From positions 1,550,001-1,614,000 of the forward strand of contig NZ_OW659496.1 in assembly GCF_940143175.1 (NCBI RefSeq): a stretch of 64,000 bases of DNA, read 5' to 3'. The position numbers were made by a program, and so were the translations under genes. This DNA comes from Erysipelothrix amsterdamensis. Its GTDB lineage: Bacteria > Bacillota_I > Bacilli_A > Erysipelotrichales > Erysipelotrichaceae. Numbering within the stretch: the first letter of the stretch is position 1; each line of letters starts with the position of its first letter. The notes beneath the pieces were generated by a model that did no database searches, had not been told where the DNA came from, and was given only the letters and a program-made list of their open reading frames with translations. Shown here piece by piece: positions 18,128 to 25,713 of this stretch.

Positions 18128-18151
18128 AAAAAGAGAGGATATTCCTCTCTT
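18128..18151 (-). terminator. Terminator of the P-type ATPase gene
   Basis: AGAGAGGA-TAT-TCCTCTCT, an 8-bp stem, is followed on the minus strand by a T run, 17 bases past the stop codon. Confidence 0.85.
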
Positions 18152-18167
18152 TGGTTATTCAATTTAA

Positions 18168-20750
18168 TTAATGTTTACCGTTAAGTTTAAGTAGTTTCAT
18201 AATTTCGACGATAATCATTGGTACAAACATCAACATCACAACAATCATCCAGTGATGTCCATCAAGTGTTCCAAGTTTAAATAAATCGTTTAGAACTGGA
18301 ATGAATAATACCGCAAGAATCATGAGCCCATTAATGAGCGTTGCCATGATGAGGTATTTATTTTTCCAGAATGATGTGAATACTGATTTTTCACTTGAAT
18401 GAATACTGTAGGAATGGATTAATTGTGAGAATGCTAATACGATAAATGCCATTGTCGTACCTGTTTCAGTATCACCAACAGCCCATAGACGCCCTGCTCC
18501 GTACATGTAAGCAAAGAGTGCAACGCCCCCTACAACAGCACCTTGGTACCCAATACGCCAAAGCATTGATTTACTGATAAGTGAACCTGTGCGATCTGGT
18601 TGACGTTCCATAATACCATCTTCTGCACCATCAACACCAAGTGCTAATGCTGGAAGACTATCCGTTACAAGGTTAATCCATAATAAGTGAATTGGTAGAA
18701 GGGGTGCATCCCAGTCAAGGAGTACCGCAATTAATAACAGTAACAATTCTCCAACATTACATGATAGTAAGTAAGAGATTGCTTTCATAATATTATCTTT
18801 AATACGACGACCTTCACCAATTGCAGTTACTACTGTAGCAAAGTTATCATCTGTAAGAACCATGTCCGCTGCACCTTTAGCAACTTCCGTTCCAACAATA
18901 CCCATTGCTGCACCGATGTCAGCACGTTTTAGGGCAGGCGCATCGTTAACACCATCACCTGTCATCGCCACGATATCACCATGACGTTTCCAAGCGGAAA
19001 TAATGCGCATTTTATGTTCTGGAGAAACACGTGCATACACGCCAATATGTTGAACTTGTTCGAACAATTCATCATCCGTCATTGCATCTAATTCTTTTCC
19101 AGAAATAACACGTTGTCCATCCTCAAGGAGTCCAATTTCACGACCAATTGCAGATGCGGTAACAGCATGGTCACCCGTGATCATTACGACACGAATACCT
19201 GCTTTTTTACTTGTTTTAATTGCTTCTGTAACTTCAGGACGTGGAGGGTCGATCATCCCTACCAATCCAACAAATGTTAGTTCACTTTCAATTTCGGTTG
19301 CTTCTAAGTCTGTATTTGAAACAGATTTTTTAGCAAGTGCAAGAACGCGTAGTGCCTTGACACCCATTTCTTGATTATTTTTTTGAATGCGTTCAATATC
19401 TTCTTGAGTAATTGCACGAACACCATTTTCATCTTGGTATTGTGTTACAACGGCAAGAACTTCATCAACGCCACCTTTTACAAATACTGTAGCATCCCCA
19501 TCAATATCATTAATGGTACTCATACGTTTACGTCCTGAATCAAAAGGAACCTCATTTAATCGTGTATGCTTTTGAATCAAGCCAACAGCATCAAGGTCAA
19601 GCGCTTCTGCCCATGCAGATAGTGCTGTCTCAGTTGGGTCTCCAAGCCAATTTCCATCGACCTTACGTGCATCATTACAGAGTAATAAACCACGTGATAA
19701 TTCATTCACTTCACTTTCAGTCCAATATTCTTTTACCGTCATAACATTTTGTGTTAAAGTACCCGTTTTATCTGAACAGATAACCGTTGCGGAACCAAGC
19801 GTTTCAACAGATGGTAAATTACGAACGATTGCATGACGTTCGACCAAACGTTGAACACCAAGTGCTAAAACAATTGTAGCAACAGCTGGTAAACTTTCAG
19901 GAACAACTGCGACCGCTAGAGAAACCGCTGTTAAGAACATTTGTAAGAAATCATGATTATTCAAAACACCAACAAGAAGAATAATTCCACAAGCAATAAT
20001 CGCTCCAACGCCTAGGATTTTACCCAGTTGATTTAATTGTTGTTGCAGTGGTGTCGGATCTGATTTTGTTTCAGTTAGCATCGTAGCAATCTTACCTACT
20101 TCAGTGTCCATACCGACAGCAACGACAACTCCTTGTCCACGACCATAACTCACCATTCCGGATGAATATGCCATATTTTTACGATCTCCTAAGACCGCAT
20201 CTTCAGCACATACAACATCCGCATGTTTTTCAACAGGTACAGATTCTCCTGTTAAAGATGCTTCTTGTACTGTTAAGGAATTTGATTGGACAATTCGTAA
20301 ATCGGCAGGTACTAAATCCCCTGCATCCATTACAATCAAATCTCCAACAACAACATCATTCGAATTAATTGTTTGTTCTTCACCGCCGCGAATAACTTTT
20401 GCGGTTGGGGTAGACATATCTTGAAGTGCTTTAAGGGACTTCTCAGCTTTGTCTTCTTGAATCATTCCAATAAGTGCGTTCAATGCTACGATTGCGAAAA
20501 TTAAAATCGCATCTGCATGTTCCCCCACAATACCACTAATTAAAGCAGCAACAAGTAAAATAATGATTGTTACGTCTTTAAACTGATCCAATAGACGCAT
20601 CATAAAACTACGTCCCTTTGCTTCAGCCAATTTATTCATCCCATATTTCTCACGTGATGCCTCAATTTGCGCATCCGTTAATCCGTTGACGATATCCGTC
20701 TTTGCTGCCACTTCTTCAAGTGACTTTGCATACCATTTTGTATCTTTCAC
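18168..20750 (-). CDS. P-type cation ATPase (IIA type), riboswitch-controlled
   Basis: An 860-residue cation pump. It has an N-terminal cation-ATPase domain, TGES actuator loop (about 167-170), M4 motif VVPESLPAVA (283-292), phosphorylation motif DKTGTLT (Asp327), TGDGVNDAPALK hinge, and M6 NLVTDSLPALALG. The M4 and M6 residues are those of Ca2+/Mn2+ pumps of the SERCA/PMR1 group. A GTG start follows AAGGAGG by six bases. The leader carries a yybP-ykoY-type manganese riboswitch, so Mn2+ efflux is likely, with Ca2+ as an alternative. It is monocistronic, with its own promoter and terminator. Confidence 0.9.
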   Translation of the reverse strand: MKDTKWYAKSLEEVAAKTDIVNGLTDAQIEASREKYGMNKLAEAKGRSFMMRLLDQFKDVTIIILLVAALISGIVGEHADAILIFAIVALNALIGMIQEDKAEKSLKALQDMSTPTAKVIRGGEEQTINSNDVVVGDLIVMDAGDLVPADLRIVQSNSLTVQEASLTGESVPVEKHADVVCAEDAVLGDRKNMAYSSGMVSYGRGQGVVVAVGMDTEVGKIATMLTETKSDPTPLQQQLNQLGKILGVGAIIACGIILLVGVLNNHDFLQMFLTAVSLAVAVVPESLPAVATIVLALGVQRLVERHAIVRNLPSVETLGSATVICSDKTGTLTQNVMTVKEYWTESEVNELSRGLLLCNDARKVDGNWLGDPTETALSAWAEALDLDAVGLIQKHTRLNEVPFDSGRKRMSTINDIDGDATVFVKGGVDEVLAVVTQYQDENGVRAITQEDIERIQKNNQEMGVKALRVLALAKKSVSNTDLEATEIESELTFVGLVGMIDPPRPEVTEAIKTSKKAGIRVVMITGDHAVTASAIGREIGLLEDGQRVISGKELDAMTDDELFEQVQHIGVYARVSPEHKMRIISAWKRHGDIVAMTGDGVNDAPALKRADIGAAMGIVGTEVAKGAADMVLTDDNFATVVTAIGEGRRIKDNIMKAISYLLSCNVGELLLLLIAVLLDWDAPLLPIHLLWINLVTDSLPALALGVDGAEDGIMERQPDRTGSLISKSMLWRIGYQGAVVGGVALFAYMYGAGRLWAVGDTETGTTMAFIVLAFSQLIHSYSIHSSEKSVFTSFWKNKYLIMATLINGLMILAVLFIPVLNDLFKLGTLDGHHWMIVVMLMFVPMIIVEIMKLLKLNGKH

Positions 20751-20787
20751 AGGCTTCCTCCTTATACATTGGATAGTAAGTAAAATA

Positions 20788-20907
20788 AAAAGACCCTATC
20801 CGTGCCTAAAAAAACTTGGATAAAGTCTCGAATTTATACACGTTCCGGACTCTAAAGTCGTGTTGACGAAACTGTGGACCTAAAGAATAGGCTTCTACTC
20901 CCTTTAT
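20788..20907 (-). promoter_or_regulatory. yybP-ykoY-type (Mn2+) riboswitch with terminator platform
   Basis: Minus-strand leader. The aptamer (20820-20907) opens with ATAAAGGGAGTAG, contains GTCAACACGAC and CCGGAA, and closes with GAGACTTTAT; ATAAAG/CTTTAT make the P1 stem. The terminator stem AGACTTTATCC (20818-20828) with GGATAGGGTCT (20791-20801) pairs over 11 bp and is followed by TTTTATTTT. Both structures use the same CTTTAT, so ligand binding should block the terminator and switch the gene on. The family was recognised by eye from its conserved ends and core. Confidence 0.85.
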
Positions 20908-20913
20908 GTATTA

Positions 20914-20942
20914 ATAATAACAAATGCACCTATGGGTGTCAA
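20914..20942 (-). promoter_or_regulatory. Promoter of the riboswitch-ATPase transcript
   Basis: Minus strand TTGACA (20937-20942), a 17-base spacer and TATTAT (20914-20919). The start point would fall next to the first base of the aptamer P1 stem. Confidence 0.8.
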
Positions 20943-21084: not shown

Positions 21085-24000
21085 TTAGTTATTATAACGA
21101 TTTTTCTTTGTTTGAATCACAAAGATTAACATACCAACAAGGCTCAATAGTAGTCCGTATAAACGTATACTGCTTGCAGTAATTCCAGCTGCAGGAAGAA
21201 CCGGTTGTGATTTCATTAAATTCTTAACAATTTTGTCCATCTCATTAATTGAATAATTTAAAGATTTATTTATCTTATCAATTTTCGAACTAGAGTCAAT
21301 TGAATCAAGACCTTCTTTTAAGACTTTATCTACTTCGGCTTTAGCTTTAGTTTTTTCGTCTTGAGTTAGTCCCGGTAATGCATCAATCGCTTTTTTCGTT
21401 TCATCTGCTTTCGCTTCTAAATCTTTTTTAGCTTTGTTTTTTGCATCTTGTAACGTGCTTTGATCAACAATGTCTTTCACTGCTTTGTCTGTTGTATTTT
21501 TCGCATCTTCAACATCTTTTGGTGTCGTACCTTGATCAATTGCGTCTTTACCATCTTGAGTTTTTTGATCAATATCATCTTTTGCTTTCTGCTTTTCATC
21601 ATCTGTTAAGTTTGGTAACTTATCGATTTCTTTCTTTGCATCTTCAGCTTTTTTATCAAGATCGTCTTTAGCTTTATTCTTGGAATCGAGAAGTTTATTA
21701 TCATCAACAATATCATTGATTCCTTTATCCGTTGTATCAATCACTTTTTCAATTTCTTTAGAATCTTTTGATTGATCAATTGCATCTTTTCCTTCTTGAT
21801 TTTTTTGATCGATATTATCTTTAGCTTTGGTTTTCTCTTCATCCGTTAAGTTTGGTAACGAATCAATTTCTTTTTTAGCTTCTTCAGCCTTCTTATCGAG
21901 ATCATCTTTAGCTTCATTCTTGGAATCGAGAAGCTTGTTGTCATCAACAATCTCATTAATCCCTTTATCGGTTGTATCGATCACGTCCTCAATTTCTTTA
22001 GGATCGTTTGAGTTATCAATTGCATCTTTGCTGTCTTGATTTTTTTGATCAATATCATCTTTAGCTTTGGTTTTTTCTTTATCCGTTAGGTTTGGTAACT
22101 TATCGATTTCTTTTTTAGCATCTTCAGCTTTTTTATCAAGCTCTGATTTAGAATCTTCTTTTTTCTTATCTAAATTGCCTGTGTTTTTCGCTTCGTATTT
22201 TTTTTCAATTGCATCTAATTCATCAATACCTGTTTTTAAGTTCTCAGGAATCTCCGTTATAACCGCAGTATCTTCAATACGCTTAATTGCATCTGCAAGA
22301 GTTTTGTTAATCTCGTCATTTGCTTCTTTACGTTGTTGATTTGAAAGTGACGGTTTATCAGCAATTTGTTTACGAACTTCTTCTGCTTTTGCTTTTAAAT
22401 CTGCAATAGCTTTGATTTTTGCATCATCAAGCTCTGCTTTAACAACAACTTTACTAATATCATCTTTACCTTGATTATAAATTGAGTCGATGTCTGATGG
22501 CGTTGTTGCTTTATCTAGAGCTTTAGAAGCGTCATTAACGGTTTTATCAATTTCTTTTTTCGCTTTATCTTTTTCGTTTTGTGATAAGTTTTCAAGTTTA
22601 TCGATTTTTTCTTTTGCCTTCTCAGCTTCTGCGTTTAAACTTGCTTTCTTGTCATCTTTAAGTTTTTTAAGCGTTTCGAAATTTTCTTTAACGAGAGCAT
22701 CTTTAATAGCATCCATTTCGGTTTTTGTATCTGTTACAACTTTATTAATTGCTTCAGTTGACGTACCAAGTTCTACGCTCTCAAGACCTTTATTTAATGC
22801 ATTATCGATTTCAGCCTTAGCTTTGTCTTTTGCTTCTTGGGAAAGACCAGGAAGTGCATCAATCGCTTTTTTCGTTTCATCGGCTTTTGCTTCTAAATCT
22901 TTTTTCGCTTTATTTTTTGCATCCTGTAATGTACTTTGATCAACAATTTCTTTCACCGCTGTATCCGTTGTATTTTTTGCATCTTCAACATCTTTTGGTG
23001 TCGTTCCTTGATCAATTGCATCTTTTCCATCTTGTGTTTTTTGATCAATGTCATCTTTAGCTTTTTGCTTTTCATCATCCGTTAAGTTTGGTAACTTATC
23101 GATTTTTTTCTTAGCATCTTCAGCTTTTTTATCAAGATCGTCTTTAGCTTTATTTTTAGTATCTAGAAGCACATTGTCCTCAACGATGTCCTTAATCCCT
23201 TTATCAGTTGTATCGACAACTTTTTCAATGTCTTTAGGATCGTTTGAGTTATCAATTGCATCTTTTCCGTCTTGATTTTTTTGATCGATATCATCTTTGG
23301 CTTTTTGCTTTTCATCATCTGTTAAGTTTGGTAACTTATCGATTTCTTTTTTAGCATCTTCAGCCTTTTTATCAAGCTCTGATTTAGAATCTTCTTTTTT
23401 CTTGTCTAAATTGCCTGTGCTTTTCGTTTCGTATTTTTTTTCAATTGCATCTAATTCATCGATACCTGTTTTTAAGTTTTCAGGAATCTCCGTAATAACC
23501 GCTGTATCTTCAATACGCTTCGTTGCATCTGCGAGAGTTTTGTTGATTTCATCATTTGCTTCTTTACGTTGTTGATCGGTTAGCGCCGGCTTATCAGCAA
23601 TTTGTTTTCGGACTTCTTCAGCTTTAGCATTTAAATCAGCTATAGCTTTCGTCTTTGCATCATCTAGTTCTGCTTTTACAACAACATTACCGATAGTATC
23701 TTTACCTTGATTATAAATTGAGTCGATATCTGATGGTGTTGTTGCTTTATCAAGTTCTTTTGAAGCATCATTAACAGTTTTATCAATTACTTTCTTTGCT
23801 TCATCTTTTTCGTCTTGCGATAAGTTTTCAAGTTTATCGATTGTTTCTTTTGCTTTTTTTGCTTCTGCATCAAGACTTGACTTTTTATCATTAATTAAAG
23901 CATCGATTGTATCATTGTTTTCTTTAATGAGTGCATCTTTAATGGCATCCATTTCTTTTGAAGTTTCTGTTATTACTTTAGTAACATCTTCAATAGATTT

Positions 24001-25713
24001 ACCTTTTTCAATATTTTCAAGACCTTTATTTAGTGCATTATCGATCTCGTTTTTAGCTTTATCTTTCGACTCTTGGGAAATTCCAGGAAGCGCATCAATC
24101 GCTTTTTTCGTTTCATCGGCTTTTGCTTCTAAATCTTTTTTCGCTTTATTTTTTGCATCCTGTAATTTACCTTGATCAACAATTTCTTTCACCGCTGTAT
24201 CCGTTGTATTTTTTGCATCTTCAACATCTTTTGGTGTCGTTCCTTGATCAATTGCGTCTTTTCCATCTTGAGTTTTTTGATCAATGTCATCTTTAGCTTT
24301 TTGCTTTTCATCATCCGTTAAATTTGGTAACTTATCGATTTCTTTCTTAGCATCTTCAGCTTTTTTATCAAGATCAGATTTTGAGTCGTTTTTACGATCG
24401 ACAAGAGTTGCATCGCTTACAATTTTATCAATGTTTCCAGCAGATGTATCTTTTGCATCCGTAGCATCTTCACGCGTCTTCGCGTCGTCGATAGCCTTCT
24501 TCCCAGTTTCTAATTCTTTTTGAATAGCTTCAATTTTTTCTTTCTTTTCAGACTCCGGTACATTTTTTAAGTCTTCAATTTTTTTGATTGCGTCATTTGC
24601 TTTCTTTTCAAGTTCTTCTTTTAGAACTGGTTTTAACTCTTGCAATTCATAAACACGTTCAACTTCTTTTAAATCATTAGTTAGTTTTTCTTTAAGTCCA
24701 GGACTTGATACTTCACCAATGTTGTTTTTCAGTTCATCGATTGTGTTTTGAGTTACATCACCTTTTAATACTTTTTCATCAAAGTTTTCAAAAGTATCCT
24801 TAATCGCTTTCTCAATTCCTTTTGCATGATCTAATAATGCTTGAGCCTTATCAAGTAAGTCGTTTACATATGCTTTAACATCACTTGCATAAGGGTTTCC
24901 TGATGCAGTAATTTTAGCTCGGATTGCATCAATATTTTTCTGAATTTCAGCTGTATCTTTACCCACTAATTCTTTAAACTCACTGTCATTAAACAATGCA
25001 TGTGTATCTTCTTGAATTAGATAGTCATCTTTCAAGAAAAATCCCATTCGATAAATTTCTAAGTGTGTATTTTTATCATTCGAAGCAAAGTGACGTAGGG
25101 AAACCGTAACTTCTCCACTTCCATCAGCGATAAAAGGTAAACTTACAATTTCTAATTTATTGGTTGCTGTAAAACCTCCAGATGCAAGTCCGTTTTTTCC
25201 AGACGTTGCAGTTCCAGGATAAATATTCAACATCCCTTTGCTCGTACCATCAACACTCTTTAACTCGGCTCTAAAATAATATTCATAGCCTGCCTGAAGT
25301 TGAATCGTTTGACCAACTAGCATAAAACTTGCATTTTCTGCCACACTTGAGTTTTCCACTCTCATTGACTTTGATTTAAATACACTTTGGTCTGTATCAT
25401 TTTTCTCGCCTACGAGATAATTATATTTTCCAATATCACGATATCCATCAGTTACTTTTGTGCTAATTGTCCCAGCTGCTTCGCCACCAAATACGTTATT
25501 TGTTGAGCTGAGTTTCCAATTTGGAATCGTCGTATCTTTTGTACCATATCTCAGATAGGGGTTTTGTAATTTATTGCCTCGGAATGGAAACAATTCCTCT
25601 GTCTCTTGTGCAGATATTGTATAATTTTGATTCATTGAAATACTTGTAACGAGCAAGACAAATGTTAATGCAATTGTCATGATCTTGTTTAATAGTTTAT
25701 TTTTTTTCATCAT
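21085..25713 (-). CDS. Giant surface protein with DUF1542-like repeats and LPAAG end
   Basis: A 1542-residue protein. It has a signal peptide (about 1-36), then an N-terminal beta-rich domain (about 40-230, starting LFPFRGNKLQNPYLRYG) that may bind ligand, a helical linker, and about 14 helical units of 70-80 residues, each with a core such as IDKLPNLTDDEKQKAK. The units look like DUF1542/FIVAR-type rods. The end has LPAAG, a hydrophobic span and a basic tail, that is, a sortase signal whose Thr is replaced by Ala. AAGGAG precedes the start. A paralogue of the same architecture lies at 35782-39930. It is probably a wall-anchored adhesin; the ligand is unknown. Confidence 0.85.
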   Translation of the reverse strand: MMKKNKLLNKIMTIALTFVLLVTSISMNQNYTISAQETEELFPFRGNKLQNPYLRYGTKDTTIPNWKLSSTNNVFGGEAAGTISTKVTDGYRDIGKYNYLVGEKNDTDQSVFKSKSMRVENSSVAENASFMLVGQTIQLQAGYEYYFRAELKSVDGTSKGMLNIYPGTATSGKNGLASGGFTATNKLEIVSLPFIADGSGEVTVSLRHFASNDKNTHLEIYRMGFFLKDDYLIQEDTHALFNDSEFKELVGKDTAEIQKNIDAIRAKITASGNPYASDVKAYVNDLLDKAQALLDHAKGIEKAIKDTFENFDEKVLKGDVTQNTIDELKNNIGEVSSPGLKEKLTNDLKEVERVYELQELKPVLKEELEKKANDAIKKIEDLKNVPESEKKEKIEAIQKELETGKKAIDDAKTREDATDAKDTSAGNIDKIVSDATLVDRKNDSKSDLDKKAEDAKKEIDKLPNLTDDEKQKAKDDIDQKTQDGKDAIDQGTTPKDVEDAKNTTDTAVKEIVDQGKLQDAKNKAKKDLEAKADETKKAIDALPGISQESKDKAKNEIDNALNKGLENIEKGKSIEDVTKVITETSKEMDAIKDALIKENNDTIDALINDKKSSLDAEAKKAKETIDKLENLSQDEKDEAKKVIDKTVNDASKELDKATTPSDIDSIYNQGKDTIGNVVVKAELDDAKTKAIADLNAKAEEVRKQIADKPALTDQQRKEANDEINKTLADATKRIEDTAVITEIPENLKTGIDELDAIEKKYETKSTGNLDKKKEDSKSELDKKAEDAKKEIDKLPNLTDDEKQKAKDDIDQKNQDGKDAIDNSNDPKDIEKVVDTTDKGIKDIVEDNVLLDTKNKAKDDLDKKAEDAKKKIDKLPNLTDDEKQKAKDDIDQKTQDGKDAIDQGTTPKDVEDAKNTTDTAVKEIVDQSTLQDAKNKAKKDLEAKADETKKAIDALPGLSQEAKDKAKAEIDNALNKGLESVELGTSTEAINKVVTDTKTEMDAIKDALVKENFETLKKLKDDKKASLNAEAEKAKEKIDKLENLSQNEKDKAKKEIDKTVNDASKALDKATTPSDIDSIYNQGKDDISKVVVKAELDDAKIKAIADLKAKAEEVRKQIADKPSLSNQQRKEANDEINKTLADAIKRIEDTAVITEIPENLKTGIDELDAIEKKYEAKNTGNLDKKKEDSKSELDKKAEDAKKEIDKLPNLTDKEKTKAKDDIDQKNQDSKDAIDNSNDPKEIEDVIDTTDKGINEIVDDNKLLDSKNEAKDDLDKKAEEAKKEIDSLPNLTDEEKTKAKDNIDQKNQEGKDAIDQSKDSKEIEKVIDTTDKGINDIVDDNKLLDSKNKAKDDLDKKAEDAKKEIDKLPNLTDDEKQKAKDDIDQKTQDGKDAIDQGTTPKDVEDAKNTTDKAVKDIVDQSTLQDAKNKAKKDLEAKADETKKAIDALPGLTQDEKTKAKAEVDKVLKEGLDSIDSSSKIDKINKSLNYSINEMDKIVKNLMKSQPVLPAAGITASSIRLYGLLLSLVGMLIFVIQTKKNRYNN
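21276..24618 (-). repeat. DUF1542-like coding repeats in the first surface protein
   Basis: About 14 units of 70-80 codons arranged in a higher-order pattern: KLPNLT type, ALPGLS type, KLENLS type, DKPALT type, then KLPNLT again. Several units agree almost perfectly at DNA level, which suggests recent duplication or gene conversion. The edges are approximate. Confidence 0.8.

Follow-up and report, generated by a model that had tools for sequence, protein, structure and literature searches.

The leader of a P2-type ATPase gene in an Erysipelothrix genome is very probably a divergent manganese riboswitch of the yybP-ykoY class, which activates transcription of the pump gene downstream. The window analysed here is a stretch of 64 kb from this 1.91-Mb genome, and on its minus strand a promoter, a four-helix aptamer, an intrinsic terminator, a Shine-Dalgarno sequence and the GTG-started gene of an 860 amino acid P2-type ATPase follow one another. 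A previous examination of the letters without database searches (the sequence-only reading) had proposed a promoter, an aptamer, a terminator and a GTG-started pump gene in this order, and we found all of them where it had placed them. Both the Mn2+ riboswitch class and the kind of target are already known, and the window leader shows a small variation on them.

The promoter (20914–20942; this and all other coordinates of the locus refer to the minus strand of the window) is of the sigma-70 type, with TTGACA and TATTAT separated by 17 bp, an extended -10 TG and 11 of the 12 consensus letters; the same promoter can be seen before most copies of the leader in the genus. Its position leads us to predict that the transcript starts with the first base of helix P1 (20907) or right next to it. 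The 5′ strand of this switch helix, AUAAAG (20902–20907, segment A), pairs with CUUUAU (20820–20825, segment B), which also belongs to the 5′ arm of the terminator. This is the ATAAAG/CTTTAT closing helix that had been proposed for the aptamer, and the suggestion that CTTTAT is common to this helix and to an 11-bp terminator stem is likewise borne out. Between the two strands lie loop L1 (GGAGUAG, 20895–20901), helix P2 (GCCUA/UAGGU, 20878–20892) and helix P3 (CACAGUU/AACGUG, 20839–20876), the last of which encloses loop L3, helix P4 and a CCGG motif. Loop L3 (CGUCA...) has an invariant adenosine at 20864, a conserved CA and an invariant GG are found within this P3 region, and P4 is formed by GACU (20859–20856) and AGUC (20851–20848). 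The terminator (20787–20828) has a stem of 11 bp made of AGACUUUAUCC (20828–20818) and GGAUAGGGUCU (20801–20791) and a U-tract at 20791–20787; its 3′ arm (segment C) keeps its pairing throughout the genus, with alternation between G-U and A-U pairs. The loop of this hairpin exceeds 8 nt, for which reason a simple terminator scan missed it, but it is seen in the fold. Downstream of it we find a post-terminator arm, CUAUCC (20771–20776, segment D), complementary to GGAUAG in the terminator 3′ arm, then the Shine-Dalgarno sequence AAGGAGG (20757–20763) and the ATPase gene (18168–20750, GTG start at 20750). Another intrinsic terminator (18130–18152) lies just 3′ of the ATPase stop codon, and the ATPase transcript is therefore probably monocistronic. 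The gene directly upstream of the riboswitch (21085–25713, also on the minus strand) encodes a 1542 amino acid surface protein with 14 DUF1542 and six GA-module matches and, towards the carboxy-terminus, an LPAAG signal of the sorting type.

P1 and the terminator compete for CUUUAU and are mutually exclusive. When the RNA was folded up to the U-tract without ligand, the energy model favored the terminator (-33.0 versus -18.9 kcal/mol), and the same preference was obtained in ten relatives; OFF is therefore the default state, and a ligand must favor P1. The leader also folds better than its shuffled versions (z -2.35, 4/200). In Lactococcus lactis, docking of Mn2+ stabilises P1.1, a helix with a 3′ strand that is otherwise part of the terminator (PMC11087558), and the overlap between the P1 3′ strand and the terminator is alike in the window leader. 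We propose that transcription would start at about the first P1 base and that, without Mn2+, CUUUAUCC would pair with GGAUAGGG to form the terminator, with release of a short RNA. At high cellular Mn2+, the ion (together with Mg2+) would dock L1 and L3; docking would stabilise P1 (AUAAAG:CUUUAU) and take away the terminator 5′ arm, and the polymerase would continue into the coding region of the pump. Left without its partner, the terminator 3′ arm of the read-through transcript would pair with the downstream CUAUCC, which may help to hold the ON fold. The leader would thus be an ON switch acting by anti-termination.

In each of the 13 genomes of the genus, an ATPase gene is preceded by an element of this design. 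A contig of E. tonsillarum encodes the same ATPase with 95% identity, and the leader design is still kept in G149 and G154, where the gene encodes a different ATPase that matches the window pump at only 43% identity. In an alignment of 14 leaders, two-sided changes occur in 10 of the 21 aptamer pairs, 90.8% of the cells are paired (sliding the partners lowers this to 20–44.5%) and the covariation score of 0.302 compares with 0.172 for shuffles. P1 is nearly unvarying within the genus, which is expected, since one strand must serve two helices. Outside the genus P1 does covary: among 71 wider relatives, aligned by a fit to the model's own structure so that the alignment leans towards it, two-sided changes affect 19 of the 21 pairs and five of the six P1 pairs, 90.5% of the cells are paired and the covariation score reaches 0.761 (0.213 when shuffled). 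Covariation is seen in P2, P3 and P4 as well, so that all four helices by which the yybP-ykoY class is defined, arranged as two legs of a junction, are supported in these 71 sequences.

The letters of the metal site are even more constant. GGAGUA of L1 and the adenosine of L3 are identical in 71 of the 71 relatives. In the aptamer of L. lactis, Mn2+ contacts the phosphates of G9, U39, C40, U44 and C45 and the N7 of the invariant A41, and A10 makes a cross-helix contact (PMC9190785, PMC6754395). By motif alignment, on which this equivalence rests, L1 of the window leader corresponds to G8, G9 and A10, and the invariant adenosine of L3 to A41. From these correspondences we infer that Mn2+ is the ligand.

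The covariance model of the class in Rfam, RF00080, does not recognise the leader. A match to it had been named beforehand as a check of the sequence-only reading, and this expectation failed: the window gave none at the gathering score, at E 5 (401 bases) or at E 10 (161 bases), nor did the whole genome at E 10. Its gathering score of 45 bits was reached in 0 of 266 genomes of the family, the best relatives scoring 34.3 bits (E 1.4e-7), whereas a covariance model built only from the leaders of the genus (R1) finds the element in 82 of the same 266 genomes at E ≤0.01. RF00080 is thus blind to the Mn2+ riboswitches of the Erysipelothrix lineage. The sole relevant Rfam match of the leader is to RF02617 (SSRC10), over the full length of the model and at 27 bits against a gathering score of 56, with E-values of 0.0039 on 401 bases, 0.0016–0.0039 on small stretches and 0.0046 genome-wide. 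A second RF02617 match in the genome was dismissed as chance (E 1.99). Class- and phylum-wide scans found no copies of RF02617 above its cut-off, and a consensus search of plasmids for the element found nothing.

Matches of the three models coincide in related genomes: R1 matches the RF00080 sites (RF00080 up to 34 bits) in L033, L034, L040, L041, L043, L050, L052 and L053, and RF00080 and RF02617 match identical coordinates in L007, L014 and L022. R1, RF00080 and RF02617 therefore describe one RNA. The assignment to the yybP-ykoY class and the switch geometry of the sequence-only reading are consequently upheld, not by RF00080 on the window itself, but by covariation, by the overlap of R1 with RF00080, by the invariant loops and by the MntP genes downstream in relatives (see below). 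Subthreshold RF02617 matches also precede the ATPase genes of Enterococcus raffinosus (L140) and Lentilactobacillus buchneri (L142, annotated as PMCA-type). In L141, a match to the Enterococcus sRNA Ref64 (RF02847, below cut-off) lies at 342–411, with a further PMCA-type ATPase gene following after about 350 nt, and no Mn2+ riboswitch match was found before that gene. We also observed that the element occurs twice on one strand of G233:C44 (32309–32422 and 33512–33624), with about 1.1 kb between the copies, and that in G150, a related genome, a T-box leader (L118, 90–324) precedes the riboswitch by about 1.2 kb.

The genes that follow the RNA in relatives agree with the association of the yybP-ykoY class with Mn2+ exporters. 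According to homology to the window ATPase and inspection, the first downstream gene codes for a P-type ATPase at 27 loci, and at about 20 it codes for an MntP-like protein. All three MntP-like proteins that were run against Pfam PF02659 pass it, and for four of four MntP is the best NCBIfam match, although below the cut-off of that model. Outside the genus, Na+/Ca2+ exchanger genes follow some members. CitMHS/ArsB-like permeases are found downstream of the element in L012, L018, L019 and L020 (CitMHS confirmed for L012 only), and it is possible that they are unrecognised exporters of Mn2+ or other cations. Elsewhere the element precedes a TetR-type regulator (L027, 1502–1606; Pfam TetR_C_8 passes and TetR_N is just below cut-off) and, by eye, a stomatin-like protein (L010, 1504–1615), both unusual targets for a Mn2+ riboswitch.

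The pump itself is a complete P2-type ATPase according to Pfam, with the motifs PESLP in M4, NVGE in M5 and NLVTD in M6. The only ion-specific NCBIfam model whose cut-off it passes is TIGR01517 (calcium-translocating P-type ATPase, PMCA-type; 525.2 versus 507.05 bits), so that the prediction that this gene would attract the label of a calcium ATPase proved right. Passing TIGR01517 says nothing certain on Mn2+ versus Ca2+, and the three motifs and the family matches leave the choice equally unsettled. We found no MntP gene in this genome and one exporter of the CDF type; the ATPase is therefore plausible as the main Mn2+ exporter, and because of the CDF exporter it need not be the sole one. Judging from its leader, the pump most likely exports Mn2+, and possibly Ca2+ as well.

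Three other explanations have to be weighed against a Mn2+ riboswitch. The same architecture could have changed its specificity to a different divalent ion (Ca2+, or more than one metal), in front of a pump that exports chiefly Ca2+. The PMCA-type calcium model, the Na+/Ca2+ exchanger genes downstream of relatives of the RNA and the yybP variants of altered specificity that have been suspected and proposed in the literature to respond to other metals (PMC7266159) all speak for it, as does the pneumococcal switch, which is described as Mn/Ca-sensing (PMC11434433). Against this, the L1 residues and the adenosine that selects Mn2+ through its N7 do not vary in any of the 71 relatives, and MntP manganese exporters are encoded downstream of the same RNA in related genomes; we regard a retuned switch as unlikely.

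The terminated leader could also be a trans-acting sRNA that lies before the ATPase gene by accident. RF02617, its best Rfam match, is indeed typed there as an sRNA ("Streptococcus sRNA 10") and belongs to no clan; SSRC10 was described as an S. pyogenes sRNA candidate located between a hypothetical gene and the "putative calcium transporter" gene SPyM3_0440, with a Rho-independent terminator at its end, and Northern blots show it as a discrete RNA (PMC3675131). A short RNA of this kind, though, is exactly what a terminated riboswitch would yield, SSRC10 itself adjoins a transporter gene, its model and RF00080 pick out the same places, and the association with cation exporters extends over the genus and the family; an incidental sRNA is accordingly very improbable. 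Just as improbable is a plain attenuator, in which a conserved terminator hairpin would work without ligand sensing: the terminator is indeed the most stable fold, but such a device has no need of covarying P2, P3 and P4 helices and invariant unpaired L1 and L3 upstream of the terminator. A Mn2+ riboswitch hence accounts best for the leader, and SSRC10 is probably the streptococcal form of such a leader, misfiled as an sRNA.

Beyond the known design, a segment complementary to the terminator 3′ arm occurs downstream of the U-tract in every leader of the genus. The usual pairing is GGAUAG with CUAUCC, and variants are GGAUAAG/CUUAUCC in G151 and G152, GAUAAA/UUUAUC in G149 and UAAAG/CUUUA in G154. 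The upstream arm CUUUAU is unchanged across these four and the usual leaders, and the downstream segment therefore follows the terminator 3′ arm on its own account. When we computed the duplex energy between the terminator 3′ arm and the next 24 nt and compared it with dinucleotide shuffles, the genus gave -9.82 versus -5.91 kcal/mol and 65 other leaders gave -5.31 versus -4.41 kcal/mol, values that none of 300 shuffles reached in either case. A control of 345 ordinary terminators from the same loci showed no enrichment (-4.95 versus -4.88; 70/300). Moreover, leaders pair better with their own downstream segment than with one taken from another leader, with a permutation p of 0.023 inside the genus and, beyond it, 0 of 20,000 permutations. 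The post-terminator arm is universal in the genus and present in only part of the other leaders; by eye, we did not see it in the leaders of Enterococcus and Lentilactobacillus.

A role of this arm in deciding termination was rejected, as segment D is transcribed only after the U-tract. With P1 imposed, the best read-through fold lies within 0.1 kcal/mol of the fold with the arm-D pairing in 10 of 11 leaders, and the arm may act in holding the ON fold, in RNA stability or in translation. One could imagine a four-segment switch (A/B/C/D) in which D would capture C after read-through, lock the ON fold and keep the 5′ end, which begins with P1, helical after Mn2+ leaves, a scheme that we put forward only tentatively and consider somewhat doubtful. 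If true, such a lock would be an added layer of control, on RNA stability or translation, of a type that is not described for the yybP-ykoY class in the literature we searched; in any case, the post-terminator arm is a testable new detail of how these switches may hold their ON state.

These results reassign to probable Mn2+ efflux a pump that carries a calcium ATPase label, in a genus with animal pathogens among its members. They also indicate that what Rfam files as the SSRC10 family is this riboswitch leader, and that the entry calls for merging or re-typing. The order of motifs in SSRC10 (GGGAGUAG, CGUCA, CCGG, GAGAC and terminator) is that of the window leader, and both adjoin a cation-transporter gene; the differences are that SSRC10 is filed as an sRNA without clan and that the window copy scores below its gathering threshold.

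A close counterpart is the yybP-ykoY switch of L. lactis, upstream of yoaB (PDB 4Y1I). There too, the P1 switch helix is common with an intrinsic terminator and the logic is that of an ON switch, L1 contains G9 and A10, and L3 has a UCA with the Mn2+-coordinating adenosine. The window leader differs in that its P1 has one G-C pair beside L1 instead of two, in that RF00080 does not recognise it and in its conserved extra arm after the terminator. The closest case that has been studied is mgtA (formerly caxP) of Streptococcus pneumoniae, a bacterium of another order than Erysipelothrix, whose riboswitch (Martin et al. 2019, as cited in PMC11434433 and PMC10543277) is a yybP-ykoY-family switch before the gene of a P-type ATPase reported to export Mn2+; in PMC11434433 MgtA is reported as a Mn2+/Ca2+ transporter, under a switch that senses Mn and Ca. 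Among ATPases of solved structure, the closest to the pump is the Ca2+-ATPase LMCA1 of Listeria (lmo0841), which aligns over residues 7–854 but has NLGA at M5 and PEALS at M4 where the Erysipelothrix pump has NVGE and PESLP.
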